Shown: in pieces, positions 17,063-60,666 of the stretch
How positions within the stretch are numbered: the first letter of the stretch is position 1
How the letters are laid out: the number at the start of each line of letters is the position of its first letter
NCBI GenBank assembly: GCA_950295325.1
Contig: OX485803.1
Coordinates: 15,934,001 to 15,998,000 of the forward strand
Direction of reading: 5' to 3'
DNA length: 64,000 nt
Source: Polytrichum commune
Taxonomy: Eukaryota > Streptophyta > Polytrichopsida > Polytrichales > Polytrichaceae
Made by a program: the position numbers and the translations under genes
The notes under the pieces: model-generated
Database searches by the model: none
Told to the model about the DNA's origin: nothing
What the model saw: the letters and a program-made list of their open reading frames with translations, nothing else

Positions 17063-17290
17063 CTGGGAAGTTTTTGGGCATAGTGGATCAAGATCCTAGT
17101 GATTCTAAATCCAACCGGTTACATGTTGACATAATCTTCCGGTTTTGGCTTCATTCATGCGAGGTATATTCCATAGATTCCTCTAAAATGATGGGTAATT
17201 CTCCTGAAGTCTCCAACTTCAACCGGTTATTTCTCCAACGCAACCGCTTCATCTGCAACTAAGCGCCGGTTATCCCCGAGCAGTGCCCCG
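17063..17290 (+). mobile_element. AACCGGTT element, copy a
   Basis: About 200-230 bp unit: start resembling CTGGGAAGTTTTTGGGCATA, middle CCAACCGGTTACATGTTGAC, then CTTCAACCGGTTATTTCTC and CTAAGCGCCGGTTATCCCC. Five other copies lie at 17413-17608, 17766-17985 (inverted), 36820-37027, 46894-47126 and 55690-55870 (inverted). It is non-coding, with short imperfect inverted ends. Confidence 0.7.
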
Positions 17291-17412
17291 AAGTCTCCGA
17301 TTAAACCGAAGTAACAAAGCGAATGAACCAATTGATTCAAAGGAAAGATGACTTACCACTTGCAGGCATGAGCACTCCGGTCCCCCGCACTCGCAATTGT
17401 GGTAGTAGGCTC

Positions 17413-17608
17413 TGACCAGTGATCGGGGAGAGTTTTGGGCATAATCGGACGACATCCTCCGGTTCTCCTTTGTTAAATTGGGGTATATTCTATAGATTCC
17501 TCTACAATGATCGGTAATTCTCCTGCAATCTTGAACTTCAACCGGTTGGTTATTTCTCAAACTCAACCGGTTCATCTGTAACTAACTGCTGGTTGTCCCG
17601 ATTATTGG
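17413..17608 (+). mobile_element. AACCGGTT element, copy b
   Basis: Starts CCAGTGATCGGGGAGAG and ends TGTCCCGATTATTGG, so its ends match as imperfect inverted repeats of about 14 bp. The interior carries CTTCAACCGGTTGG and CTCAACCGGTTCATC. It lies 120 bp from copy a and about 160 bp from inverted copy c, forming a local cluster. Confidence 0.7.
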
Positions 17609-17765
17609 CTCTGACACACACCCCCAAATTGGCAGTAGCCAGCCATCCAATGCATTGGTCGCTCGCGAGAGCAAACTCCCAAACTGCAAGCAGCCAACAC
17701 ACACAAACAATTGCAGCAGGCTAGCTATTGCAGCGGGCTAGAACAAACTCCCAACCCATGTCCGG

Positions 17766-17985
17766 GAAGAACCGGCTCTTAGTTGCAGATGAAGCGGTTG
17801 AGTTTGAGAAATAACCGGTTGAAGTTGGAGACTTCAGGAGAATTACCGATCGTTTCAGAGGAATCTATGGAATCTGCCTCAAATGAATGAAAGCAAAAGC
17901 GGAAGATGTGAACATGTAACCGGCTGGATTTAGAATCACTAGGATCTCTTGACCGACTATGCCCAAAAACTTCCTGGGCACTGCT
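17766..17985 (-). mobile_element. AACCGGTT element, copy c (inverted)
   Basis: This is an inverted relative of copy a: AACCGGCTCTTAGTTGC at the left and ATGCCCAAAAACTTCCTGGG at the right. Copies a and c face each other and could form a long stem in a transcript spanning 17063-17985. Confidence 0.7.
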
Positions 17986-18038: not shown

Positions 18039-18552
18039 CTACAGTCTAACCTCATTAATACGACACTCGTTTATCCGACACCCTCGATATTACGACCCTA
18101 TTTTTGCACGACCAGACTTTTTAGTTCAAAACTCCCTATTTTTATGCGATTATGTCACTCAATAATGCGACATTTAGAATCTCCGTTCTGTTATATTGAA
18201 GAGGTAGTTCATGCCAAAATTTCTTTGATCTATGTTGTGTACATCTAAAATACATCCATTTTCACTTGGGAACTACTTGGAAACTTCATTTATCATTGGG
18301 AACTTAATGAGAATTAGGGTTACTAGCTAGTGCATAATGGACATGGTTAGGGTTAGAGTGACCTCTTGCCTAGTATGTTGCTAAACGTCATGCATCATTG
18401 TTGTCTAGTTTCTTATTAGAGAACTCTTTATATTTGATGTTAATGAAATTATTAGTTTTCAAAAGTTAGTAGGGAATTTAAATAAGATGGCAGTTGCTAA
18501 GTTGGGTAGGCAACACCAGAAATCTTTGGACTCTTATTTCAAGAATTCTTGA
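18039..18552 (+). mobile_element. Pogo-like element remnant with transposase C-terminus
   Basis: The left end CAGTCTAACCTCATTAATAC, with GACACTCGTTTATCCGACAC after it, has the form of pogo/Tigger (Tc1/mariner group) termini. From 18433 to the TGA at 18550-18552 one frame stays open for 39 codons and ends in QKSLDSYFKNS. This resembles a PCNA-interacting (PIP) box, QxxL..YF, which is known at the C-terminus of pogo-type transposases. The middle of the protein and the right terminus are missing, and a hAT-like MITE sits just downstream. A related C-terminal fragment occurs inverted at about 56148-56258. Confidence 0.6.
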
Positions 18553-18630
18553 GAATATTTGTATTTGTTTGGAGTTATAAGTCACCTGCAAATGGGGACC
18601 AAAACCCCTTAATCGTTCCCTCATAGATCC

Positions 18631-20236: not shown

Positions 20237-20528
20237 TAGGTCTCGTTAAAGTTTGATCCCAACTCCCGACTTTGATTGCTTCTCTACGGAACATACAAAT
20301 TGAGCTTGGAAACTTCTTGGAAATCGCGAGGTTGGTGGGCCTCGCATGTCTATATCTAGAGTATGTGTTGAAACCGGAAAAGTTTTGGCTAACACACAAA
20401 GACAAGATGCACCTCCAAACATAAGATATTTGCTCCACTTTCTATTTAAACAACTCTATTCGTACACACAAGTCATTAGCCTTGAAACTTTGTTGAGGAG
20501 TACAACTATACACCAATTTGTCATGTTA

Positions 20529-21028
20529 GGGCCACTTCACACACGAGCCAAGGGCCGTGACCATGAAATTGTGAGAGCCCAAAAGAAAGTTGTCAAAGGG
20601 TGTCCCAAGGCACCTCCAAAATCATGTAGTGTGGTCACGGATTCTCAAGTGTAGTGTGAAGTCATATGTGACCGGGTCCTCAACCAAATGCTATTTCAAT
20701 AAATTTCTATTCATGCGGGGTACTCACACATGATAAAATAGAATAAATCAACAGTTGTGAGCGTTCGGAGTGTCATGGTCTCCTGGTTGTGTGTTAGGCC
20801 TACCTCCAATATGTGATTTTTGCAAATAATCCAAGTGACCATGAAACATGATCCATTTGATGGTATGTAGAAATCCATGTAGACTTTACATCGATCTTGC
20901 ATTCACATACTCCGATGGTCCCTCAAGCATGGTGTGAAGTGAACTTGGACCGGCCCCACCTTTTCCACCAATGAGAGTGCTTGAAGTGTAAGGGTCATGG
21001 GCTCTCAGTCTCATGTGTGAAGTGCCCC
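20529..21028 (+). mobile_element. Tourist-like MITE family 1, 500 bp
   Basis: Starts GGGCCACTTCACACACGAG and ends CTCATGTGTGAAGTGCCCC, imperfect inverted repeats. The flanking 3-base duplication is TTA (20526-20528 and 21029-21031), the target preference of PIF/Harbinger (Tourist) elements. Non-coding. An inverted close relative is at 26640-27144. Confidence 0.85.
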
Positions 21029-22059
21029 TTAGTGTGGGTAGAAATCTCTATTCTTAAATTTATCATTTGAAGAGAATACATCTGAATAAAAATCATTATT
21101 TCATATAACTATTAATTTGCAAAATCAAATCTTGGATATTGAAAGCAGTTTGTGGCGAAACTTGTATGAGTGACACTGATTATTAATCCATGTTGATTCA
21201 CAACAGACACAAAACAAAATGGAACTCATTCAAGGCATGATCCTAAAACACTTCCATACACATTGTTCGAGCCTTTATTTTAACAACTAAATGGTTTGTA
21301 ACAATTCACAAACTTACAAACTTCACTATGAGAGTGTTTGCAAAGATCATCCATACAATGGCAAGTCCTAATTCCCTTTTGGAGTTGATTAGGAGATTTT
21401 TAATTTCAATGTTTTCCAATTATAATATAATATAATAATACATCTGAAATTGATATTTCAAAACACTACATACTAGATATTATGATTTCAATTTAAGATA
21501 GGCGTGCCTAATTTGGTTACTCATCTTAATCCAACACCTTCATTGAGTGGTATGTGGTTATGTGTGACTTCAAGAACATATACTAAAAGGACATGTGTTT
21601 AAAGAGATCAAACTATATGCTCCAAATAAGTCTAGGTTCACTACATTGATAATCCCATTTAGTGCGTGTGGTACTAATTCCAAAAGCGCACACTATTTTA
21701 GTGAGGGTTGAAAGTCTTACCGAGTGATTCTAAATACATGAATACATGCTCATTTCCCATGCACTTCAAGAACGTCAGCGCGTGCTCTAAGGTGCTTGTA
21801 GAGTGCATAATTTATTTTGATGAGCTCGAAGAGGCTTCTTCTTTTTAGTCGAGGCCACTCACTTTTGAGGCTTCTCCTAACACTGAGAAGCTGAAGAGAG
21901 CTTGCATCGAGAGTTTTTGGCACCTTTAACACCTTGGGCTCTCAAAACCCTAGATCTTCAAGTGGCACTAATTTTGTAGCGTAAAGAAATTTAGTATCAC
22001 CTTTACTAAGTTCCCACATGTACGTTTAGCTCACACTCACTAAATGGGATAATTGCCGG

Positions 22060-26416: not shown

Positions 26417-26636
26417 GGGCCACTTCACACACAAGTCAAGGGCCGTGACCGTGTAATCGTGAGGGTCCTCGAATCTCATCCAAAGGTTGTACTCGTTGTT
26501 TAAATGACATGGTATGTCATATAGGAATCCATACACAAACTTCTTCATCCATGACAATTTCTTTGGGCCCGTAGGCCTTCACCTCTAGTATGAAATGAAC
26601 TTGGACGGTCTTGGCCTTTTCAACCAATAAGGGATC
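26417..26636. mobile_element. Tourist-like MITE family 1, truncated by a nested copy
   Basis: Starts GGGCCACTTCACACACAAG after TTA (26414-26416). Its interior (GGACGGTCTTGGCC, CAACCAATAAGGG) corresponds to an inverted form of the 49819-50156 element. The right end is missing where the next element begins at 26640. Confidence 0.6.
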
Positions 26637-26639
26637 TTA

Positions 26640-27144
26640 GGGCCACTTCACACACGAGATTGAGAGCATGTGATCCTTACACTTCAAGCACTCTCATTGG
26701 TGGAAAAGGCGGAGCCGGTCCAAGTTCGATTCACACTACGCTTGAGGGACCAACATAGTAACTATGTGAATGCAAGGTGGATGTAAAGTCTACATGAATT
26801 CCTACATGGCATTGAATGGATCATATTTCATGGTCACTTGGACTATTTGCAAAAACCACCTCTTGGAGGTAGGCCTAACACAAAACCGGGAGACCGTGGC
26901 GCTCCGAACACTCACAACCGTTGGTTTTATTCTATTTTATCATCTGTGAGAACCCGCATGAATAGAAATTCATTGAAATAGCATTTGGTTGAGGGCCCAG
27001 TCACATATGGCTTCACACTACACTTGAGGGTCCGTGACCGCACTACATGATTTTGGAGGTGTCTTGGGACGGCCTTTGGATACTTTCTTTTGGGCTCTCA
27101 CAATTTTATGGTCACGGCTCTTGGCTCGTGTGTGAATTGGCCCC
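26640..27144 (-). mobile_element. Tourist-like MITE family 1, 505 bp (inverted)
   Basis: This is an inverted homologue of 20529-21028, with ends GGGCCACTTCACACACGAG and TCGTGTGTGAATTGGCCCC. The TTA flanks lie at 26637-26639 and 27145-27147. It appears to be inserted into or beside the older copy at 26417-26636, giving a nested structure. Confidence 0.82.
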
Positions 27145-27860
27145 TTAACAACTGCCCTTTCAACAATGAAGCATTAAGAAAGAAAGAATCTAAGCATCTC
27201 CTGAATGTGACAAATAAAACAAAAACACACCACCTTCCTCTCCCCTCCCTACAGGATTACAAGAGCTACACTTTTTGGCTCACCAATGCGCCCATTTATA
27301 GATGACTAACCAAGAGCCTCCACGGGAAATGGAGCCAAATCATAAAGATTCCCTAAACCCTTGAGCCCCTCTCTTCAAGTCAACAAAGGAATACTTGGGT
27401 ACATATCCTCGATACATATCCCTATGCAATAGATTCAACTATTCCCCACATAGAGACCTCCTCCTCCTCCTAGCATCTACAAACGTTCGACATAAATGTC
27501 GGGAGTGAAGGCTCCCCTAGAGCCTAGGTGGCGTTTGGGAATAACTTGGGCGAATTGCATGGTTCCCTTGACAAATTCACTTCAATGAAGTGTAGGCATA
27601 AAAACAATCCAACTCCGCGTCACTAACAAAATATCTCCCCATAAACGAGTGCACCGTACACCGTCAATGGCTCGATTCCATCGATTCCCGATTCCCGATT
27701 CTTATTCTCTCTCTCTCTCTCTAGCGGAAAACCATTACTTAAACTCTAGGGAGGCCCTAGTGAGAATAAGCTAGGGTTTGATTGATGGTGCGGCCAACGA
27801 TGGCACTACTTTTGCGTGGAGCTTTGATCGTACTTCCGCATGGCTATAAGCCCCCCGAGG

Positions 27861-33764: not shown

Positions 33765-34026
33765 GGCCCTAGTCTAGAACACATCTTCATTCAGCTAGGC
33801 CTCACCCCTCCCACGCCTCCTTCACTGCTTGGTCTTCCTGCCCGCACATGCGTGGGAACTCTTCCTCGTTGGGAACCAATGTGACAATACCCGGTTAGAG
33901 GAATTATCACATTGGTTCCCAACGAGGAAGAGTTCCCACGCAGGTGCGGGTAGGAAGACCGGGCAATGAAGGAGGCGTGGGAGGGGCGGAGCCCAACCGA
34001 ATGAAGATGTGATCTAGCCCAAGGGC
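33765..34026. mobile_element. Foldback element, 262 bp near-perfect hairpin
   Basis: Left arm from GGCCCTAGTC to AACCAATGTGACAAT (33765-33888) and right arm from ATTATCACATTGGTT to AAGGGC (33903-34026) are close inverted copies of about 120 bp. They leave a loop of only 14 bases (33889-33902). Flanks CAGTAACT (33757-33764) and CAATAGCT (34027-34034) agree at 6 of 8 positions. An uninserted relative of the site (AACAATAGCTTAAGG near 34330) supports insertion with an 8 bp duplication. Confidence 0.75.
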
Positions 34027-36539: not shown

Positions 36540-37150
36540 TTGTTTTGGTTACGTTTCTTAATCGGACATCCGTATTTGAGTGGTATATGCGGTCAGGTGT
36601 GGTTCTAAGAACGGATGTCAAAAAGACATCTGTTCTCAAGAGATTGGATCATGTGCTCAAAATATAATCACTATTCTAAGTTCAATAGTCGATAGAATTG
36701 GGAGGGCTTGTATGACCATCTCACGAGCATGAGAATCTTCACTTTGATGATGAATATAACAGATATCCATATGAGCTTTGAACACATTTGAGGAAAGCGG
36801 CTACGACCTCAATTTGGATAGTGTCCGGGGAGATTTTTGGGCATAATTGGTTGGGATCCTCGTGTTTCCAAGTCCAACCGGCTACATGTTGACATCTTTC
36901 GGGTTTTCTTGACTCATTTGAGACATGTGCTACAAATTCTTTTGAAACAACGGATAATTTTCTTGAAGCCTTGAACTTCAGCTGGTTCATTTGTAACTAG
37001 CAGCCGGTTCTCTCCGTTCATTGATTGAATTTGGATTTGCTAACCATCTCTCACTAGTCGCGAGTTTCATATCCTACGAGAAGTGGGCTAGTTGGAATCA
37101 CCGACAATTCAAGACCCATCTTACCTTTGTCACACGAGCAAAACTCCCAT
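36540..37150 (+). repeat. Dispersed repeat family P, longest copy
   Basis: Carries the whole block order: TTGGTTACGTTTCTTAATCG, GTATTTGAGTGGTATATG, AAAAGACATCTGTTCTCAAG, GCTACGACCTCAATTTGG, then (after an inserted element) TTGGATTTGCTAACC and CAAGACCCATCTTACC. It helps define the family because two other elements are inserted in or next to it (36820-37027 and 37158-37745). Confidence 0.6.
36820..37027 (+). mobile_element. AACCGGTT element, copy d, with 9 bp target duplication
   Basis: Starts AGTGTCCGGGGAGATTTTTG and ends CTCTCCGTTCATTGATTG. It is flanked by a perfect 9-base duplication AATTTGGAT (36811-36819 and 37028-37036). Uninterrupted relatives of the host sequence at about 16093 and 22893 carry this motif once. 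A 9 bp duplication fits Mutator-like elements, but the ends are short and imperfect, so the superfamily is open. Confidence 0.8.
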
Positions 37151-38251: not shown

Positions 38252-40239
38252 ATGTCTTGCGGCTGTGGGTGCTGCCCCAAGTGCGGCTGCCGCGCCACCT
38301 GCACGTAAGACGACGGCTATCACCGGCGCTCAGGCCCCTCGAGTGGTATCTCGCGTAGATCTTTCGTCAGAATCAGAAGTGGTGGGAGCTTAGTTTCAGA
38401 AGAATTGAAAGGTGGCAGTTTAGTTTAGTTTAGTGGCGGTCACTGGAGGTTGAGAGTAGGCTTATGGTACACGGTGTTATGGAGTAATTTGTGATGAAGC
38501 CGGGGAATTGGCTCAGGAATCAGCGGCGGACGCAGCGACGTGTGTGTGTGTGTGTGTGAGGGCGAGATTTGTTGGTGTTGTTTTATGTTGGTTATGAGAG
38601 GCTGGAGAGGATTTTAGTATGGTTTGAGTCTTTGGATTCTCATGGGAGGTTGCTGGTGTGCTTGTGTGTGACAGCTGCAACCGGAATTCGTGGTTGAACG
38701 AGAACATGGCAGGATACAGGTATACTTCTCTCCATCAGATCATGCTCATGGTTTGATATTAGAGGAAACTGAGGAGAAGACTCTGAATTTTTTATACATG
38801 TCTGCTCTTAGCCTGCCATACAGGTAGATAGGTAGGTGATTAGACATGCATATCTCGCCCTGTGATACATGGCCAGATCATCCGTCATGCTCATAGTTTG
38901 CTCTGGTTTGCGAGGAAATTGAGCAAAGTCCAAGAGGTCGTGCTCGGTCTCCATGTCTTCCATGCAGGAAGATTTGAAACTTGATGGCCAGATCATAACG
39001 ATGCTCATAGTTTGGTTTGATTTGACTCTCACATCTCAAGTCTTTATGTCCGGTTTTAGCCTAATACCATCCATGCAGGAGATTAGCCCGAAATTAGAAA
39101 CGTATAGCTCGCCCTGTCATGGCCAAATTATGATGCTGACGATCACGTGTTGAGAGGAAATTTAGGAACGCTGCATTTGAATTCATTGTCTATGCATCTT
39201 TGTATGGCTAACATGATGCGCTTTGTGGTTGTGGTGTATGTCATAAACTACAGCAACATGATGACCGTGGCCGGAGAGACCGGCAAGTGCGGAAACTGCA
39301 ACTGCCCCGCAGGGACCTGCGCCAAGGAAGGCTCGAGCGAGTCTTTCTTCTCCGTAGCCGGTGAGAACGGCGGCAAGTGCGGCAACTGTGACTGCCCCGC
39401 AGGCACCTGTGCCAAGGAGGGATCCGGCCAGTCTTCCTACTTCTCTGTCGCCGGTGAGACCGGCAAGTGCGGAAGCAACTGCAACTGCCCTGCTGGTAAG
39501 TCCATACAACAACAACACCTCTCTCTCTCTCTCTCTCTCTCCAAATTCCCCCGGGCTAATTCTGGAAATTCAATATTTGCGTACTTCTCACGCATCCATC
39601 ACGGCACCTTCCATGGGTTAGGTTGTTAACGAGTCCTTCGCTATTAGAAGCTGAAACAATGCATTCTTTTCGCTAACCCATGATTTCACTGACACTAATA
39701 CCGTATAGTGATGTCTAGTTCAACACTTTGAGTGCTGATTTCTACGCAAGAACCAACATGTGAATAGAACACGTGGCTCTTATTTTTTACTTCCAAGAGA
39801 GACAAGTTGTAGCATGAATAAGGAATTCTAGAACTAGAAATTCAGTTCTTGCGTGCTTCCAAGTTCATATACATCCATCACAGCACCTTTCATGGGTTTA
39901 GGTTGGTAGCGATCGAGTTTCTGGCTTGCCAAAAGCTTTCATACAGCTCTTTTTTTTTCATTAGCCTCCTGATTTCGATACTCAAATTCTGTCTCCTCCA
40001 TGAAGTTGTAGCAAGAATCAGAAATTCGGAACAGAGTAGATATGCTCGACCTCATGATGACTTGGCAGAGGCTTTACTTGATTGAGCGAGTTTTGGTGTT
40101 TTGTGATGTTGGCTGAAATTAATGAAAAAGTGAACTGATGAATTGGGGAATTATGGCAGGAACCTGCGTAAAGGAGGGATCCAACACCGGCAAGTGCGGC
40201 AACTGTGACTGCCCAGCCGGCACCTGCGCCAAGGAATAG
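38252..40239 (+). CDS. MT: Metallothionein-like protein, 124 aa, three exons
   Basis: Exons are 38252-38304, 39254-39495 and 40160-40239, joined by GT-AG introns of 949 and 664 bp (donors CAC|GTAAGA and CTG|GTAAGT, acceptors ACTACAG and ATGGCAG). The frame is continuous for 125 codons including the TAG stop. The product has 23 cysteines: an N-terminal cluster MSCGCGCCPKCGCRATC, then four copies of a KCGNCxCPAGTC unit (residues about 29-40, 59-70, 89-101 and 110-121) separated by FFSVAGE-type linkers. Metallothioneins bind Zn, Cu or Cd through Cys thiolates in the cytosol. KCGNCDC resembles the N-terminal cluster of plant type 3 proteins, but five clusters exceed the two or three of flowering-plant types. 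The first exon is short and rests on splice-site and cysteine logic. The third unit has one extra residue (KCGSNC). Confidence 0.85.
38730..39150 (+). repeat. Diverged tandem duplication in metallothionein intron 1
   Basis: The words CAGATCAT, ATGCTCATAGTTTG, ATATCTCGCCCTG or ATAGCTCGCCCTGTCATGG, and GAGGAAA recur two to three times at about 150-250 bp spacing. This indicates stepwise duplication within the intron. Confidence 0.6.
39515..39930 (+). repeat. CT microsatellite and about 290 bp duplication in metallothionein intron 2
   Basis: A CT run at 39519-39541 follows the splice donor closely. The block CATCCATCACGGCACCTTCC with ATGGGTTAGGTTG (39593-39625) recurs as CATCCATCACAGCACCTTTC with ATGGGTTTAGGTTGG (39872-39906). 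Confidence 0.65.
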
Positions 40240-46893: not shown

Positions 46894-47126
46894 ATGTATC
46901 CGGGGAGATTTTTGGGCATAATTGATTGAGGTCCTAGTGTTTCCAAGTCCAACCGGTTACATGTTGACATTTTTTGGGTTTTCTTTTTCTTTATAAAATT
47001 GAGGTGTGCTCTCTAAATTCCTCTAAAACGATGGTTACTTTTTGTGAAGTCTTGAACTTCAACCGGTTATTCTCAAACTCAAACCGGTTCATCTTGTAAC
47101 TAGCGGTCGGGTCTCCTTGTTCATTG
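46894..47126 (+). mobile_element. AACCGGTT element, copy e
   Basis: Starts ATGTATCCGGGGAGATTTTT and ends TCTCCTTGTTCATTG. The flanks CCACATAC (46886-46893 and 47127-47134) are an exact 8-base duplication. The body has CCAACCGGTTACATGTTGAC, TTCAACCGGTTATTC and CAAACCGGTTCATC. Same family as 36820-37027. Confidence 0.8.
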
Positions 47127-53858: not shown

Positions 53859-54945
53859 TCATGAAGGTTTATTTGGGTTGACGGTGTCAGCTACAGATTG
53901 CGCAGCATTGCTGACAGCATCCCCAACCTGTGAAGAAGAATTCGCACAAGTGTTACATTATCACATGACTGCAATGTGCATAATCCCAACAGAGATACAG
54001 AAGGCAAAGATGGCAAACAGGTGTACAAACAGACAGAGGTGGCCACAGCAGATTTACTTAAATTTCTTTTACTGAATGTGCCAGTAATGCTTAATAATAC
54101 CTGCTGAAGCACATTGCCAGTGCCCTCTTTGGCTTGGCCAGCTTTGTCTTTGGCAGCCTGGGCGGTGTCTGAGGTGGCCTGTTTCGTTTGCTCCCATTTC
54201 TCTCCTGCATAATTCCCAGCTTCACTGCTCTTCTGTTGCGTCGCCCCGGCTACATCGGAGGCTTTGTCTTGGACTGCTCCAGCAGCATTCTGATCACGAA
54301 CAAATACCACCATCAAGCACCAAAATCAAATGAACCGAAGAAATCAGGAGCATACCATGGAATCTACAGCATACCATGGCATTTCCGACCAACCACCATA
54401 ACCCACCCAAGTAGCAGAAAATGTAAAAAATAACAACAAGTGTACCGGGGGTTGCAAAAATCTATAATAGAGCATACCATGGCATTCAAAGACCGCGCAT
54501 TCCTCCTGACAAGCTGTTGATTAATTGTAAACAGAACGATGTAACAAATGAACCAGAAATTAATAGAACAGAAAAAGCATCACAACAGATGAAGAGGAGA
54601 ATTGCACAGATTTAGAGCATACCATGGCATTTCTGTCCAACTACCATAACCCACCAAGTACTTACAAGCAGAAATGTAATTTCATAACAAGTGTACAGGA
54701 GAAATGCAGAAATCTACAGTAGAGTATACCATGACATTCAGACACCGCCCATTCATCCCGACAGGCTGTTGATTAATCATAAACAGAACGGGTTGACGAG
54801 GTGAAAGCTACTGATGCCCAGGCATAACTGTTAAAATTGGTACCTTCGTTGCGTCTTGAGCTTCCCCAGCCTTTTGCTGACCGTAATTCTTGGTCTCCTC
54901 GCTCTTTTGAGCTGCAGCGTTCTTGGTATCGTCGTAGCTCGACAT
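53859..54945 (-). CDS. Group 3 LEA protein (LEA_4 type), 119 aa, three exons
   Basis: Minus-strand exons 54945-54844, 54289-54101 and 53927-53859 give 120 codons ending TGA, with phase-0 GT-AG introns (donors AAG|GTACC and CAG|GTATT, acceptors GATCAG and TTCACAG). The product is hydrophilic, Ala/Lys/Glu/Gln-rich, without Cys. It begins MSSYDDTKNAAAQKSEETK and holds 11-residue-type repeats such as AAGAVQDKASDVAGATQQK and DTAQAAKDKAGQAKEG (about residues 36-90), plus the KWEQTKQ motif. Group 3 LEA proteins are disordered in solution and become amphipathic helices on drying, protecting membranes and enzymes. The start is set by homology to the gene at 58302, whose first exon is also 102 bp. An in-frame upstream ATG at 55006-55008 is less likely. 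Divergent from LEA2. Confidence 0.88.
54345..54800 (-). repeat. About 265 bp tandem duplication in LEA1 intron 1
   Basis: AGCATACCATGGCATTTC, CCACCATAACCCACC, ACAAGTGTACCGGGG and AGCTGTTGATTAATTG (54350-54538) recur as AGCATACCATGGCATTTC, CTACCATAACCCACC, ACAAGTGTACAGGAG and GGCTGTTGATTAATC (54617-54790). Confidence 0.75.
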
Positions 54946-55416
54946 GACGGTGATGGGTGTGGATGAGTACTCACTCACTGATGAGAAACGACCGATCCGA
55001 GGCTTCAATACAAACTCCTACTCGAAGTTCTGCAACTTTGTCAAATTAAAGGGGCTGTAATTAATACGATGATAATACGAGAATGGCTAACAAGTAATTG
55101 AGTCATGTTATTCAGGGATGTATAGTTCTGCTCTTTTTATGTGAAAGCGAGATCGAACCGCTGTCGTTGGAAATTGTATCTCCGCGGCGGTGCGGGTGGA
55201 CGCATGCCTCTCGCTATCGATAAGAGGCCAATAGCATCTAGACACGAAGTGGGTGCAGTTTTGGCGACATCCTGCAGTGATGAGTTCGACTGGCGGGGCA
55301 CACCAACCCAACCCAACCGCCGCTGAATTTTTCTTTTTCCACCCAATTACTGTCCGCCAACTCGAGTAATAAGAAATCGGATCGACCCTAATGTCAGATC
55401 AGGGGGTTAAAATGCT

Positions 55417-55423
55417 ACGTGGC
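55417..55423. promoter_or_regulatory. ABRE core ACGTGGC upstream of LEA1
   Basis: ACGTGGC lies 470 bp upstream of the LEA1 ATG, just outside the left arm of the 55476-57933 segment. ABRE elements bind ABA-responsive bZIP factors and are usual in LEA promoters. A 7-base match is weak on its own. Confidence 0.4.
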
Positions 55424-55689
55424 CTTCATCGGGACTTTCCAAGTGGCCGGACTCTTGGCCTTATTGGTGGGGGTGCCCTGTCACTAGGGCGCTCCATAGA
55501 ACCAAGGGCAGAGTGCACCCTGGCCATGGATGCGCCCCGGGACGGTGGACGGTGCAGATTTTAAGCGGGCAGCGGGCCCTGCCAGGGCTGCGGGCCCCGG
55601 GCACGGGGGAGGGAGACAGGGGAAGGGAGGGCTGACACCCCCACTTGGGCACCAATGATAGGGAGCACCGGCAGTTAATTACAGATTTC

Positions 55690-55870
55690 CCAGAAATAAC
55701 CAGTTGAAGTTCAAGACTGCAGGAAAAAGACCGATCAGTTTAAGAGGAAATTATCGAGTCTACCCCAATTTAATAAAGGAAAACCAGAGGATGTCAACAT
55801 GTAACCGGTTGACTTGGCAAACACTAGGATCTCAACCAGTTATGCCCAAAAATCTCCCCCATCACTGCTT
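55690..55870 (-). mobile_element. AACCGGTT element, copy f (inverted, nested)
   Basis: AAATAACCAGTTGAAGTTC, ACATGTAACCGGTTGAC and TATGCCCAAAAATCTCCCCC match the family in inverse order. It lies within the 55476-57933 segment, so it was inserted after or carried with it. Confidence 0.65.
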
Positions 55871-55984
55871 CACACGTGAGATTGCGAGTAGGGAGTACTT
55901 GGACACTTGGACTACCGTTCTCCCTCTTCAAAATGACGCGTTTGGGAAACACAAAAGAAGGCACACGATCAAGATGTCGTTCTT

Positions 55985-56270
55985 TCATTAATATGACATA
56001 TGGCGTAAATTTGTTGTATTATTGAGGAAATACAAAAACATAAGTAATATAAGCTTCAAAATAGATACAACGTTTTAAGCAATATAGATGGTATGAAACA
56101 ATATCTCATAACTCCACACAAATATATATATATATTCCCAATAATTCTTGAAATAAGAGTTCAATTTTTTTTGGTGTTGCCTACCCAAGTTGGCAACGAT
56201 TATCTGGATTTCTACTAACTTTTGAAAACTAACAATTTCATCAAAACCAAAATATCAAGAGTTTTTTTTC
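55985..56270 (-). mobile_element. Pogo-like fragment, nested
   Basis: On the minus strand about 56258-56148 reads DEIVSFQKLV through GRQHQKKLNSYFKNYW, closely matching the transposase C-terminus at 18433-18552 including the PIP-like QKKLNSYF. Further along, GTCATATTAATGAAAG (56005-55985 region) resembles the inverted pogo terminus. It abuts the 3' end of the pseudogene and may have truncated it. Confidence 0.5.
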
Positions 56271-57480
56271 CAACTATCTAATTGGCTGTGTATGTTGGCC
56301 CAATCATCGTCCTTCACTTGTCCACCTTTTTGCATAGAGTATGCCAAATTGGAAACCTCTTTTGGGGTAGGAAAAAACCTATAAGAAATTCTTTCATGAG
56401 GCTCAACTTGTTCCTGTAAAATAGGCGCCTTACTTCGAGCTGCAACAACTGTTGAATTCACCTTATTCATGTTATGCAAGTTTTCTTGGAGATGATGAAT
56501 GGCCAGAGGGTGGAGAGGCAAGAAGAACACGTCATCAATTGAACCAGGAACATGTCCAGACTGTCCTTTGTGAAGATGGATCTGTAATATATCTCAACAT
56601 CAAAGTATGCAATAACAATTATTCAAATTAAAAAGAAATATATAAATCTAGTTATACAAATATGCTTAAAAAATAAAGAATTCAAATGAGGTTAGCAATA
56701 TTACCTCTACATCTCTGTCGTTATTTGTTGGATGCACAATCTTGATGAGGAACTCACGTCCAGCATATCTTGTTATACTATATTGTCGAATTTTTGTGGT
56801 GGGTAAAACAAGTGAAGTTTCATTTGTCCTTCTTTTTTTCCCATCCCGAAAATAGCCGCCCCGACTACACCGATATACAGTAACTCTTGCGGGAAAAGGG
56901 GTGGCAGTAACGATATACTCATGATTAAGTTTCAAGTGGACCTGATATTCATAACAATGCCAACATATAAGATTATCAATATATTTAAATAAAATACTAA
57001 TATACTATAATAAAATATATAAAATATCTAATAATGTATTGAATTATGATGAAAGGATTAAATATAATATTACCTTATGCTAAAAAATAAGCTCTTTCAA
57101 TCTTTCTTCTAGATAATTGGTTGGCACACGAATGACCTCATCGTAGACTTTATGACGATTATCTAGATTTTCGCTTTATTGGGCTTGGACGTTTCTTTGC
57201 AGAGCACATAGAACATTGAAGGCAAATTTCTCTAATGTATTTGTGCGGGATTCCATAGTGAGAAGATCCTACGAGCCACCCTTTTGAATTGATAATATTT
57301 TGGGTAGCATTCATTCCATGATGTGGAATTTTACTTGTATGGGCTTCAAACACAATATTCTCACACTCTTCAAGAAATAACCAACCAGGTGAGAGATATT
57401 AACATTCTTATGAAACAGTCTCAAGTGGTTATTGTGTTGTGCTACACGTAGGCTATTCTCTAGTTTCCTCCATTTTTTAA
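56255..57480 (-). pseudogene. Broken multi-exon gene with H2C2 zinc-binding motif
   Basis: Minus-strand blocks: about 57478-57074, then 56941-56705, then 56581-56255, joined by phase-0 GT-AG junctions (donors AAG|GTAATA and GAG|GTAATA; acceptors ATATCAG and ATTACAG). Block 1 has a His pair and a CLQCSMC motif in H-x6-H-x31-C-x2-C spacing (EAHTSKIPHHG ... REICLQCSMC), as in integrase zinc-binding domains of retroelements and Ginger-type transposases. Blocks 2 and 3 read as one well-formed protein (TVYRCSRGGYFRDGKKRR, IRQYSITRYAGREF, HLHKGQSGHVPGSIDDVFFL). Defects: a one-base frame change near 57165, an in-frame TAG at 57080-57082 just before a donor, another frame change near 57400, and a probable 3' truncation by a pogo fragment. 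No start is defined. Family not identified; a DDE domain is absent. Confidence 0.55.
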
Positions 57481-57989
57481 TATGAGGAGGAGGAGGAAGG
57501 TGACGACGGTTGCCAAACCCCAGCCTTCCTAAACCCTAAACCCATGACACAGCAGAAGCAAGCAGTGGAGAGAATACCTTGGTGAGAGCGAGGAGAAGCG
57601 AGCAGGAGCGGGCGGAGCAAGAGCGGGCGGAGCAGGTGTCAGAAGGGCCCACCCTGACCACAGTTAACCACTTCAAGTGGTTAACCTATTTTGGATGAGG
57701 GGGGCTTGGATGACGAGTCATGGATGGAAGTGTAAGGTACGAGTGTACATGTTAGTTCGCCCCAGCCGGGTGTCAGCCCTCCCTTCCCCTGTCTCCCTCC
57801 CCCGTGCCCGGGGCCCGCAGCCCTGGCAGGGCCCGCTGCCCGCTTAAAATCTGCACCGTCCACCGTCCCGGGGCGCATCCATGGCCAGGGTGCACTCTGC
57901 CCTTGGTTCTATGGAGCGCCCTAGTGACAGGGGGGGGCGTGGTACGTATGTATGAATGGAGCATGCCAGAAGTTTGCCCGCATGTTCAT

Positions 57990-57996
57990 ACGTGGC
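57990..57996 (+). promoter_or_regulatory. ABRE core ACGTGGC upstream of LEA2
   Basis: ACGTGGC lies about 310 bp before the LEA2 ATG and 57 bp outside the right arm of the 55476-57933 segment. A second ACGT core (ACGTGAC, 58133-58139) lies next to the TATA-like box. Paired ABRE-type motifs fit ABA or drought induction. Confidence 0.45.
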
Positions 57997-58125
57997 GTCC
58001 ATGCTATCCAAGCTTGCCAAGTGGCGAATTGTTGACCGCCTTCTCAGATTCCGAAGAAAATCAATCGGAGTCTAAGTTAGGAGGTCGCATTGGTACCCGA
58101 TTGGTAACACATAAGTATATATACG

Positions 58126-58131
58126 TGACAC
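58126..58131 (+). promoter_or_regulatory. TATA-like box of LEA2
   Basis: TATATA 170 bp before the ATG would give a leader of roughly 145 bases. Position-based inference. Confidence 0.45.
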
Positions 58132-58301
58132 CCAATGACCCTGAACACATCAGATTTGAGTTCCGCCCATATCTCCTAACATTTCGCAGTTTAAGCATTT
58201 AGTTCTAGACCTTGCCTGCTGCTTCTAGATTCGAGGAAGTTGCAAAGTTGCTTGATTTTCGCCGAGTTTCAAGGTTTACTTCGTTCTCTAACTTCGTAAG
58301 T

Positions 58302-60666
58302 ATGTCGACCTTTGACAATGCCAAGGACACCACCGCACAGAAGGCCGAGGAGGCCAAGAGCATGGGCCAGGAGAAGGCCGGACAGGCTCAGGGCAGCGCC
58401 GAGGTATGAATTCGCACTAGTAGAGCCCCATCCATGTCTTGTTTGGGGCTACAACAAATTTCGGAGTAACTTGTGAGACTCTCGTGGAAATTCACGGAAA
58501 TGGTGCATAGAAATCTTTCTTCCTTTCTCTTTGCCGGTTAGAGTTGAGGAGCTGAAGACACTGTGTAGGGAGTCCAATGTAGCACTTTGGAATCCTACAC
58601 GCTCCTCTCCTTTCACGCAAGAGTTCTCCAAATTGATCCACGAATGCCAAGTCATGAACTTGGGGATGCGTGCTGAATCCTGGATTTTGGATTTTCTGTC
58701 GTACCGACTTTTGCAAATTTTGTATGTTGTCCTGGCACTTAACCCGAAGAGAATGTAACCGACCAAAATGGAATCTTACTCGTTCCTCACTCACAGAGCT
58801 CACCAAATTAGATTGCGACTGGAAACCAAGAGTGGCAATTGGTAAACTTGGGATGCGTGCAGAATCAACTCTGGAATCCAGGATCTCATCGTGTTTTGTA
58901 AAGTTGTTCAAAATTTGCATCATCTGTGCTGAAGAGAGTTGTGTCCTTCCTCACACACCTTCTACACCTTCCTCGCTCACAGATTTCCAAATCGATCCAC
59001 AATTTTCGAAACGTAGAGTGGGCAGTGGTAAATTTGGGATGTGTTCAGAATGCTTATAATCAAAAAATCTGTTGTCCCGCTTCTTGCTTACGTCTGCAAG
59101 TATCCAAAACTTCTTAAATGTTTGGTCCGGAGTTTCTCAAACCTCGACCCTGATGGAATGGAGTAATGTTGTTTGTATGTATGTATAGAGTGCTGCCGGG
59201 ACTGCCCAAGACAAGGCAGGAGAAGCGGGCAACTTCGCAGGATCCAAGTACCAGGACGTCAAGGGCGCAGCCGGTGACGCCGCAGGATCTGCCCAAGACA
59301 AAGCAGGCCAGGCCACAGATTATGCAGGGAGCAAGGCCGACGACGCCAAGTCGGCCGCTTCTGACACCGCGGGAGCCGCCAAGGACAAAGCGGGAGACGC
59401 CACCGGTGCCGCACAAGACAAGGCAGGCCAGACCGGGAATTTCTTGGGCGACAAATGGGAGCAGACGAAGCAAACTACCGCGGATTCCACCGGAGCCGCT
59501 CAGGACAAGGCTTCCGATGCCGCTGGCGCTGCCCAGAATAAGGCCGGCGACGCTGTGGATTATACCAAGGACTCTGCTAACTCTGCTTCCCAAATGGCTA
59601 CCGAGAAAGCCACCCAGGCCAAGGATGCCGCCGGGAGTGTCCTCCAGCAGGTAGGTTTCGCCAATTGTTTCGGTTGCACCATAGCTGCTTCAATCTTCTT
59701 CCCAACCCTTCCTCCGAGGTTTTGATCCTCATCTGTGAAATCTGGATTGGGGTAGAAAGTGAGGTGAATGTTTGGGTCTCGGTGCGACATTCTTAGTATG
59801 TTGGCCTGAAATTGAGTATAACCCAAATGGTTGCCCAGAAGGCTAACCGAAGTTGAATCTTCTTCAGTCGGTGAGTGAAAATGGTCGGGATTTGGAGTTT
59901 AAGCCTTCAACCGAGTGAACGCTACAACCAAATCCATCTTCTTCGGTTAATATCATCTTTCACTTCAAAATTTGAACGGTATGAAAAAGAAAAGTCTGGT
60001 GAAATGTTTGGGTGTCGTCCCGACATTCTTTGCATACTTACTTGAATTTGCTTGGACATGCTGTATTGCATCCCATATGGTTGCCGATAAGGCTAACCAA
60101 GCCGGGAGCGTCCTTTAGCAGATAAGATTCAGCAATTGTTTCGATTGAACCATAGTTCAGAGTTATGCTTGAATCTTCTTCTGTCAGTGTGAAAATTCTC
60201 GGGTGTCGGAATTGAATTTACCTTCAACTTGGAAAATTCCAAAGTCTGCCGGGAAATCGGTCTTCGTCTGTGAACTCTAAAATCTGAACATTCCTAATTA
60301 CTTTAACTTGTGGGGGATTCAATTCTTTCTTAGGCATCCTGAGATTTGCGCTGTCTGAACATAGAGCTTTACTTCTTTGAATCTTATCTAGGGCGTACTA
60401 CTGATATATTCTGTGTGCTCACTTGAATTTGTGAGGGTTACATTCTTTCTCGGCCATTGCTGAGATTTGGGTGGGGTGAATGTTTGGGTATTTTAAGATT
60501 ATGATACTCTTGACGTCATTGCCTGAATTTGTGAGGGGCTCGTTCTTTCATGGTGACGATACTTGCTAATATATTCGTGCTGTCTGTAACCATGGTTGTG
60601 CAGACTGGTGATGCTGTGGCCAATGCCTACCAATCCGTGAAGGACAAAGTGACCCCACAGCAGTAA
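58302..60666 (+). CDS. Group 3 LEA protein (LEA_4 type), 208 aa, three exons
   Basis: Exons 58302-58403, 59189-59650 and 60604-60666, all phase 0 with GT-AG introns (donors GAG|GTATG and CAG|GTAGG; acceptors TGTATAG and TTGTGCAG), give 209 codons ending TAA. The protein starts MSTFDNAKDTTAQKAEEAK and is dominated by 11-mer-type repeats AAGxAQDKAGxA(G/T)xxAGSK from residue 35 to about 187. It carries the WEQTKQTT motif and the tail TGDAVANAYQSVKDKVTPQQ. It has no Cys and is highly hydrophilic, as expected of desiccation-protective LEA_4 proteins. Its exon 2 (462 bp) is 2.4 times that of LEA1 (189 bp) while the flanking exons match, so the paralogues differ by repeat number. The ATG at 58302 is preferred over an in-frame ATG at 58212 by alignment with LEA1. 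Confidence 0.92.
58590..59065 (+). repeat. Three diverged tandem units of about 200 bp in LEA2 intron 1
   Basis: TTCTCCAAATTGATCCACGA with AACTTGGGGATGCGTGCTGAATC (58622-58680), CTCACCAAATTAGATTGCGA with AACTTGGGATGCGTGCAGAATC (58800-58867), and TTCCAAATCGATCCACAATT with AATTTGGGATGTGTTCAGAAT (58984-59050) share order and spacing. Confidence 0.75.
59831..60200 (+). repeat. Dead copies of the exon 2 end within LEA2 intron 2
   Basis: At 60077-60121, ATGGTTGCCGATAAGGCTAA and GCCGGGAGCGTCCTTTAGCAG mirror the real exon end (ATGGCTACCGAGAAAGCCAC ... GCCGGGAGTGTCCTCCAGCAG, 59594-59650). The similarity continues into the intron (CAATTGTTTCGATTGAACCATAG against CAATTGTTTCGGTTGCACCATAG). In the copy a Gln codon has become TAG and the donor GT has become AT. 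A shorter relic, AAATGGTTGCCCAGAAGGCTAACC, lies at 59827-59850. Confidence 0.75.

Follow-up and report, generated by a model that had tools for sequence, protein, structure and literature searches.

The window analysed here is a 64,000-nucleotide stretch of the Polytrichum commune genome (C1:15934001-15998000, where C1 is contig OX485803.1). It holds two genes for late embryogenesis abundant (LEA)-type proteins, a left gene (L) and a right gene (R), which point away from each other and are separated by a segment that we interpret as an inserted Mutator-like element (MULE) (Table 1). The ATGs of the two genes, at 54945 (L) and 58302 (R), lie 3357 bp apart. Each gene has three exons, with a first exon of 102 nt and GT-AG borders in all four introns of the pair, and the products are repeat proteins rich in A, K, D, and Q. 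The Pfam model LEA_4 matched L with an E-value of 1.2e-6 (28.7 bits) and R with 1.1e-8 (35.2 bits), both below the curated cutoff of 51.1; by that cutoff neither protein is placed in LEA group 3 (LEA_4), and the two are LEA-like, weakly so by this model.

The arms of the segment (55476-55640 and 57768-57932) are 100% complementary over 165 nt, with 2127 nt in between. A sequence-only reading of the window had described an inverted-repeat segment of about 2.46 kb between the genes and a spacer of about 900 bp without it. Both descriptions were borne out, with 899 bp computed for the spacer and with the right end at 57932, since the earlier 57933 is one base too far. A search of the host genome (408 Mb, 64 contigs) recovered arm matches in at least 25 places. 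Eighteen of these were grouped as nine inverted pairs spanning 2.5-12.8 kb, comprising the window pair and pairs on C2 (16.42 Mb), C4 (39.24 and 21.88 Mb), C6 (8.02 Mb), C1 (7.70 and 37.92 Mb), and C3 (59.08 and 9.07 Mb); seven were unpaired. Of the 25 arm matches listed, 17, those of the window element among them, have the exact 16-base terminus CCCTGTCACTAGGGCG; this fixes the element ends at 55476 and 57932.

Flanking 9-bp duplications were scored in seven of the nine pairs, the C1 7.70-Mb and C3 9.07-Mb pairs (one outer end missing) having been dropped. Partner 9-mers agreed at 9, 9, 9, 8, 7 (the window element), 7, and 6 of 9 positions, with an exact duplication in three of the seven pairs, in comparison with at most 5 of 9 among the non-partner combinations (n = 42). 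The window 9-mers are G-rich, and shuffling the letters of the same two 9-mers reached 7 of 9 in 22% of cases. The duplication at the window element, described as weak in the sequence-only reading, therefore proves little alone, and the family carries the proof. Its left copy may alternatively represent GGGGGCGTG with a 2-base deletion (GGGGG--TG).

A Pfam scan of eight proteins identified the MULE domain (PF10551), above cutoff, in the 384-aa open reading frames (ORFs) of siblings L031 (C4, 21.88 Mb; 3e-11, residues 154-237) and L036 (C4, 39.25 Mb; 3.3e-9, residues 154-235); the other six proteins gave no MULE match. The window ORF 56593-56258 carries the peptide that opens these 384-aa ORFs, the stretch encoding the MULE domain is absent from the window element, and the window ORF 57004-56669 matches an ORF located beside the 384-aa-type frame in sibling L030. 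ORF 56593-56258 ends at the junction 56261-56266, where about 3 kb of L031 is missing. Lacking a transposase core of its own, the window element is non-autonomous.

Alignment with the C2 sibling (99.0% identity over 1851 columns, with 14 mismatches and 4 gap bases) was unbroken across this junction, so the deletion is common to at least two copies. Read in reverse, the C2 copy's right end corresponds to the left 413 bp of the window element, and the terminal homology of the C2 copy is thus longer than the 165 bp of the window element. In place of its inner right side, the window element has a 284-bp piece of another repeat (57484-57767), for which the sibling stretches examined alongside the element gave no match. 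The end point of this repeat agrees to within one base at four of the five other loci compared, where the flanks differ. The closest sibling, L029 (C2:16423000-16431900), apparently contains about 5 kb of other sequence inside its left terminal inverted repeat (TIR), at arm position ~156-161.

Two other identities were rejected for parts of the segment. CACTA does occur within the arm, but a CACTA-type end is at odds with the terminus of the family, CCCTGTCACTAGGG, and with its 9-bp duplications; and the interior ORFs correspond to frames in the transposase region of siblings and were therefore rejected as a host gene. Elsewhere in the window, four stretches (17065-17969, 18422-18581, 36827-36992, and 46902-47071) are 75-81% relatives of the subterminal region of the element (segment positions 177-392 and 630-788), which suggests that they are its older, decayed relatives.

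Working criteria published for plant MULEs (PMC3310237) comprise a TIR of at least 100 bp and a duplication of 9-11 bp with up to two mismatches. In the window, the TIRs measure 165 bp, are 100% identical, and have matching intact ends; the duplication, at 7 of 9, falls just inside the limit; and the family includes a transposase, as PF10551 in siblings L031 and L036 indicates. The sequence-only reading had proposed an insertion on the basis of the inverted arms. This proposal gained support from same-family arm pairs at eight further loci (two of these lacking one outer end), from duplications of 6 to 9 of 9 at the six of them that could be scored, and from the MULE transposase domain in siblings, and for these reasons the segment is best described as an inserted non-autonomous MULE, ordinary in kind.

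No differences were found between the arms of the window element, the highest identity of the seven pairs compared; the arms of the other six scorable pairs were 95.2-99.2% identical (first 130 bases, gaps aside). Identical arms together with 99% identity to a sibling indicate an insertion that would be young for the family. The left spacer (with exon 1 and part of an intron of L) and the right spacer (with exon 1 of R) matched only themselves, paralogous LEA exons, and one intron repeat.

Table 1. Features of the divergent gene pair and of the segment between them, in window coordinates.
Feature	Position	Strand	Description	Basis
Left LEA-type gene (L)	53859..54945	-	exons 54945-54844, 54289-54101, 53927-53859; 119 aa	splice sites and translation
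Right LEA-type gene (R)	58302..60666	+	exons 58302-58403, 59189-59650, 60604-60666; 208 aa	splice sites and translation
Non-autonomous MULE	55476..57932	.	2457 bp	arms, own-genome family, sibling transposase domain
Left TIR	55476..55640	+	165 bp, 70% G+C	terminus CCCTGTCACTAGGGCG
Right TIR	57768..57932	-	165 bp, identical to left arm	
Left candidate target duplication GTGGGGGTG	55467..55475	+	7/9 vs right copy	
Right candidate target duplication GGGGGCGTG	57933..57941	+		
Transposase-region N-terminal remnant	56258..57004	-	ORFs 57004-56669 and 56593-56258	
Internal deletion junction	56261..56266	.	in T run; joins positions 989 and 4001 of sibling L031, ~3 kb apart there	
Fragment of another repeat family	57484..57767	+	284 bp; recurrent end adjoins right arm	
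Motif unit A, ACGTGGC-N15-CCAAGTGGC	55417..55447	+		
Motif unit B, ACGTGGC-N20-CCAAGTGGC	57990..58025	+		
TATA-type run of R (putative role)	58116..58123	+	186 bp before ATG	
CATAAAAA, weak TATA-like site of L (putative role)	55134..55141	-		

Close outside the element on each side is a copy of ACGTGGC, resembling the abscisic acid (ABA)-responsive element (ABRE). Both copies reported in the sequence-only reading were confirmed; they are plus-strand motifs at 55417 and 57990. Each is followed by CCAAGTGGC, a second shared motif missed by that reading, and the two units so formed (A and B) would lie 85 bp apart without the element. In the 899-bp spacer, ACGTGGC occurs twice against 0.09 expected (P 0.003, 2000 dinucleotide shuffles), and CCAAGTGGC likewise twice against 0.004 expected, a count reached in 0 of 2000 shuffles. 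Across the genome, ACGTGGC-N10-36-CCAAGTGGC, whose gap range was set after the two window copies had been seen, gave 8 matches at 7 places, two of which flank the element; a reversed control gave 0.

In the LEA-type family, we read the upstream regions of seven genes, namely L (530 bp) and R (369 bp), both as far as the element, and five others (to 900 bp): gene T, which starts at C1:16000683, 8.4 kb past the R ATG and in the same direction as R, and four genes on C7. Half-motifs recurred, with ACGTGGC in 6/7 and CAAGTGG in 5/7 regions (L and R counted). Upstream of T, ACGTGG is positioned at -358 and CCAAGTGGC at -324, in the same orientation as in R; T has a one-base variant of ACGTGGC, with the full ACGTGGC on the opposite strand at the same spot. 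ACGTGGC is present upstream of three of the four C7 genes, between -207 and -236, and two of the four carry the second motif in reverse. Unit B lies 283-312 bp ahead of the R ATG, with a TATATATA run about 100 bp away. For L, the first 470 bp upstream of the ATG are free of ACGTG cores, and the sole one before the element is that in unit A.

The sequence-only reading had explained L and R as an inverted tandem duplication, and this explanation was not supported. In a protein tree of the seven genes, R grouped with T (support 99), the four C7 genes grouped together (support 91), and L formed a third branch; the cores for this tree were trimmed by hand, a possible source of bias. Outside the coding exons, the upstream regions of L and R share no clear homology. 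A mirrored gene duplication would also predict units on opposite strands, and the location of units A and B on the same strand argues against it. Exon-1 DNA identities were 66% for L-R, 78% for R-T, and 75% for L-T; L is closest to a C7 gene (78%) and is 74-78% identical to T and the C7 genes. T and one C7 gene share 81%, slightly above T-R, so exon 1 alone pairs R with T less firmly than the protein tree does. The second intron is common to L, R, and T and is absent in the four C7 genes read. Given the R-T grouping, the separate branch of L, and this shared intron, the pair is most readily understood as a long-standing divergent arrangement in a local cluster, and not as a recent inverted duplicate. 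LEA-type paralogs also form clusters at C7:37132565-37139421 and C7:30418324-30421851, with one direction within each cluster.

From these data, we consider it probable that a young non-autonomous MULE entered the 0.9-kb spacer separating two divergent LEA-type genes and landed between two ABRE-type motif units. A transposase from a longer sibling would have moved the deleted copy into the spacer by cut-and-paste, as the TIRs and the class of duplication suggest. Each LEA-type gene would have kept its core promoter and one ABRE-type unit; units A and B presumably bind bZIP-type ABA factors. Each gene could now be run mainly from its own side, with earlier sharing of units weakened and neither promoter destroyed, and the split spacer may thereby have changed the co-regulation of L and R. 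The simplest outcome of the insertion would be two independent promoters. A stronger outcome, in which a shared switch was lost, is possible in view of L, whose nearest ACGTG core is the one in unit A. The sequence-only reading had envisaged a bidirectional stress promoter split by insertion; the inserted segment and the ABRE-type site on each side, within a rare two-motif unit, survive from it, and the two units are co-oriented, not mirrored. A specific version, in which the ancestral spacer held two co-oriented tandem ABRE + CCAAGTGGC units, 85 bp apart, acting as one ABA switch for both genes until a recent MULE split one unit to each, appears to us rather doubtful.

Several observations weigh against an insertion that separated functional motif units. 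No empty site was found in the genome of the window itself, and the assembly showed no second haplotype of the spacer; we infer the insertion from comparison across the family rather than from an empty allele. The spacer shows no enrichment of the bare ACGTG core (3 against 1.5 expected, P 0.20), and over the full window ACGTGGC itself exceeds chance expectation (7 against 2.4). Around the five remaining genomic occurrences of the motif unit, no evident stress gene was located within about 1.3 kb, open frames being judged by eye. Unit A is reversed relative to L and, at ~478-502 bp from the L ATG, is more distant than any ACGTGGC site observed in the other six upstream regions. Finally, the C6 pair has 95% identical arms with an exact duplication, and the window element has the opposite, identical arms with an imperfect duplication; the latter combination is compatible with recombination between two MULE copies, which for this reason keeps some place among the explanations.

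A neutral insertion, in which the promoters were independent from the start and the element only lengthened the spacer, seems to us nearly as plausible as not. It would suit the half-motifs of same-direction paralogs (T and three of the four C7 genes), which have no known divergent partner, as well as the intactness of both units and the lack of clear homology between the L and R upstream regions. The absence of an ACGTG core within 470 bp of the L ATG counts against it, as L may have depended on the compact region. Quite unlikely, in our view, is that the element marks a rearrangement in which recombination between two MULE copies joined the L flank to R, perhaps by inversion. The duplication of only 7/9 despite identical arms would fit such an event, and so would the position of L, which is not the closest relative of R on the trimmed tree and is the only one of the located neighbours to diverge (R and T point the same way, as do the C7 genes in each cluster). 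However, no swapped duplication was seen by eye at the other element flanks among the at least 25 listed, the second intron, present in L, R, and T and absent in the four C7 genes read, suits a local origin, and the published criteria tolerate two mismatches (PMC3310237). That the arms belong to an old palindromic spacer or to an assembly artefact is very improbable: gene conversion or mis-assembly could produce perfect arms alone, but same-family arm pairs with different flanks at eight other loci, the six scorable ones with duplications of 6 to 9 of 9, contradict it.

Read as a MULE insertion, the segment resembles long-TIR plant MULEs (PMC3310237) in its TIRs of more than 100 bp, the 9-bp duplication class, the MULE transposase domain of its siblings, and the occurrence of internally deleted copies, and differs from them in the missing transposase core of the window copy and in the two mismatches of its duplication. 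Promoters can reside in MULE TIRs (PMC3310237), so altered expression of the LEA-type genes from a TIR promoter of their new neighbour is a further possibility. Like Pack-MULEs in the general sense (PMC3310237), the element has foreign sequence between its TIRs; the criterion for Pack-MULEs is a host gene fragment, and the 284-bp piece here is part of a dispersed repeat.

The closest case found is OsPsbS1 of rice, where a 2.7-kb MULE-bearing region is located 0.4 kb upstream of the gene, in japonica with few exceptions and absent in most indica, and where the japonica promoter gave higher reporter activity (PMC4178011). The two cases share a MULE region of similar size upstream of a gene, a 9-bp target duplication, and a TIR. 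In rice a single gene is involved, with element-free alleles and reporter tests, whereas the window element separates a divergent pair. Arabidopsis bidirectional promoters active with ABA or in seed carry repeated G-boxes between divergent pairs, with 100-600 bp between transcription starts, and have been partly tested (PMC4222868); they are comparable to the window in having ABRE-type sites in a compact spacer that separates divergent genes, and differ in that the window spacer is interrupted. No case of a transposon dividing a bidirectional or LEA promoter was found among the open-licence papers listed for the terms searched.

The element itself is unremarkable in type; what merits testing is where it sits, between two rare motif units. 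Both units are intact, and the distance between them alone was changed by the element. If the insertion proves polymorphic among populations or close relatives, it would provide a natural experiment on a divergent stress-gene pair losing its common upstream region. The partner motif CCAAGTGGC recurs in the LEA-type family, seldom forms a unit with ACGTGGC elsewhere, and represents a testable cis-element.

Other features of the window were noted. An ORF at 39108-39626 has three Cys-rich GETGKCGNCNCPAGTCAKEG-type repeats, metallothionein-like by eye, with no Pfam match at E 0.5, and a Pfam scan of ten other window ORFs gave nothing convincing. A near-palindrome at 33767-34024, with 125-bp arms at 86% identity and an 8-nt loop, is foldback-like or resembles a miniature inverted-repeat transposable element. 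A second pair of inverted arms (20524-21032 and 26636-27150), ~510 bp long and 88% identical, has GGGCCA-type ends separated by about 6 kb and is possibly another long-TIR element.

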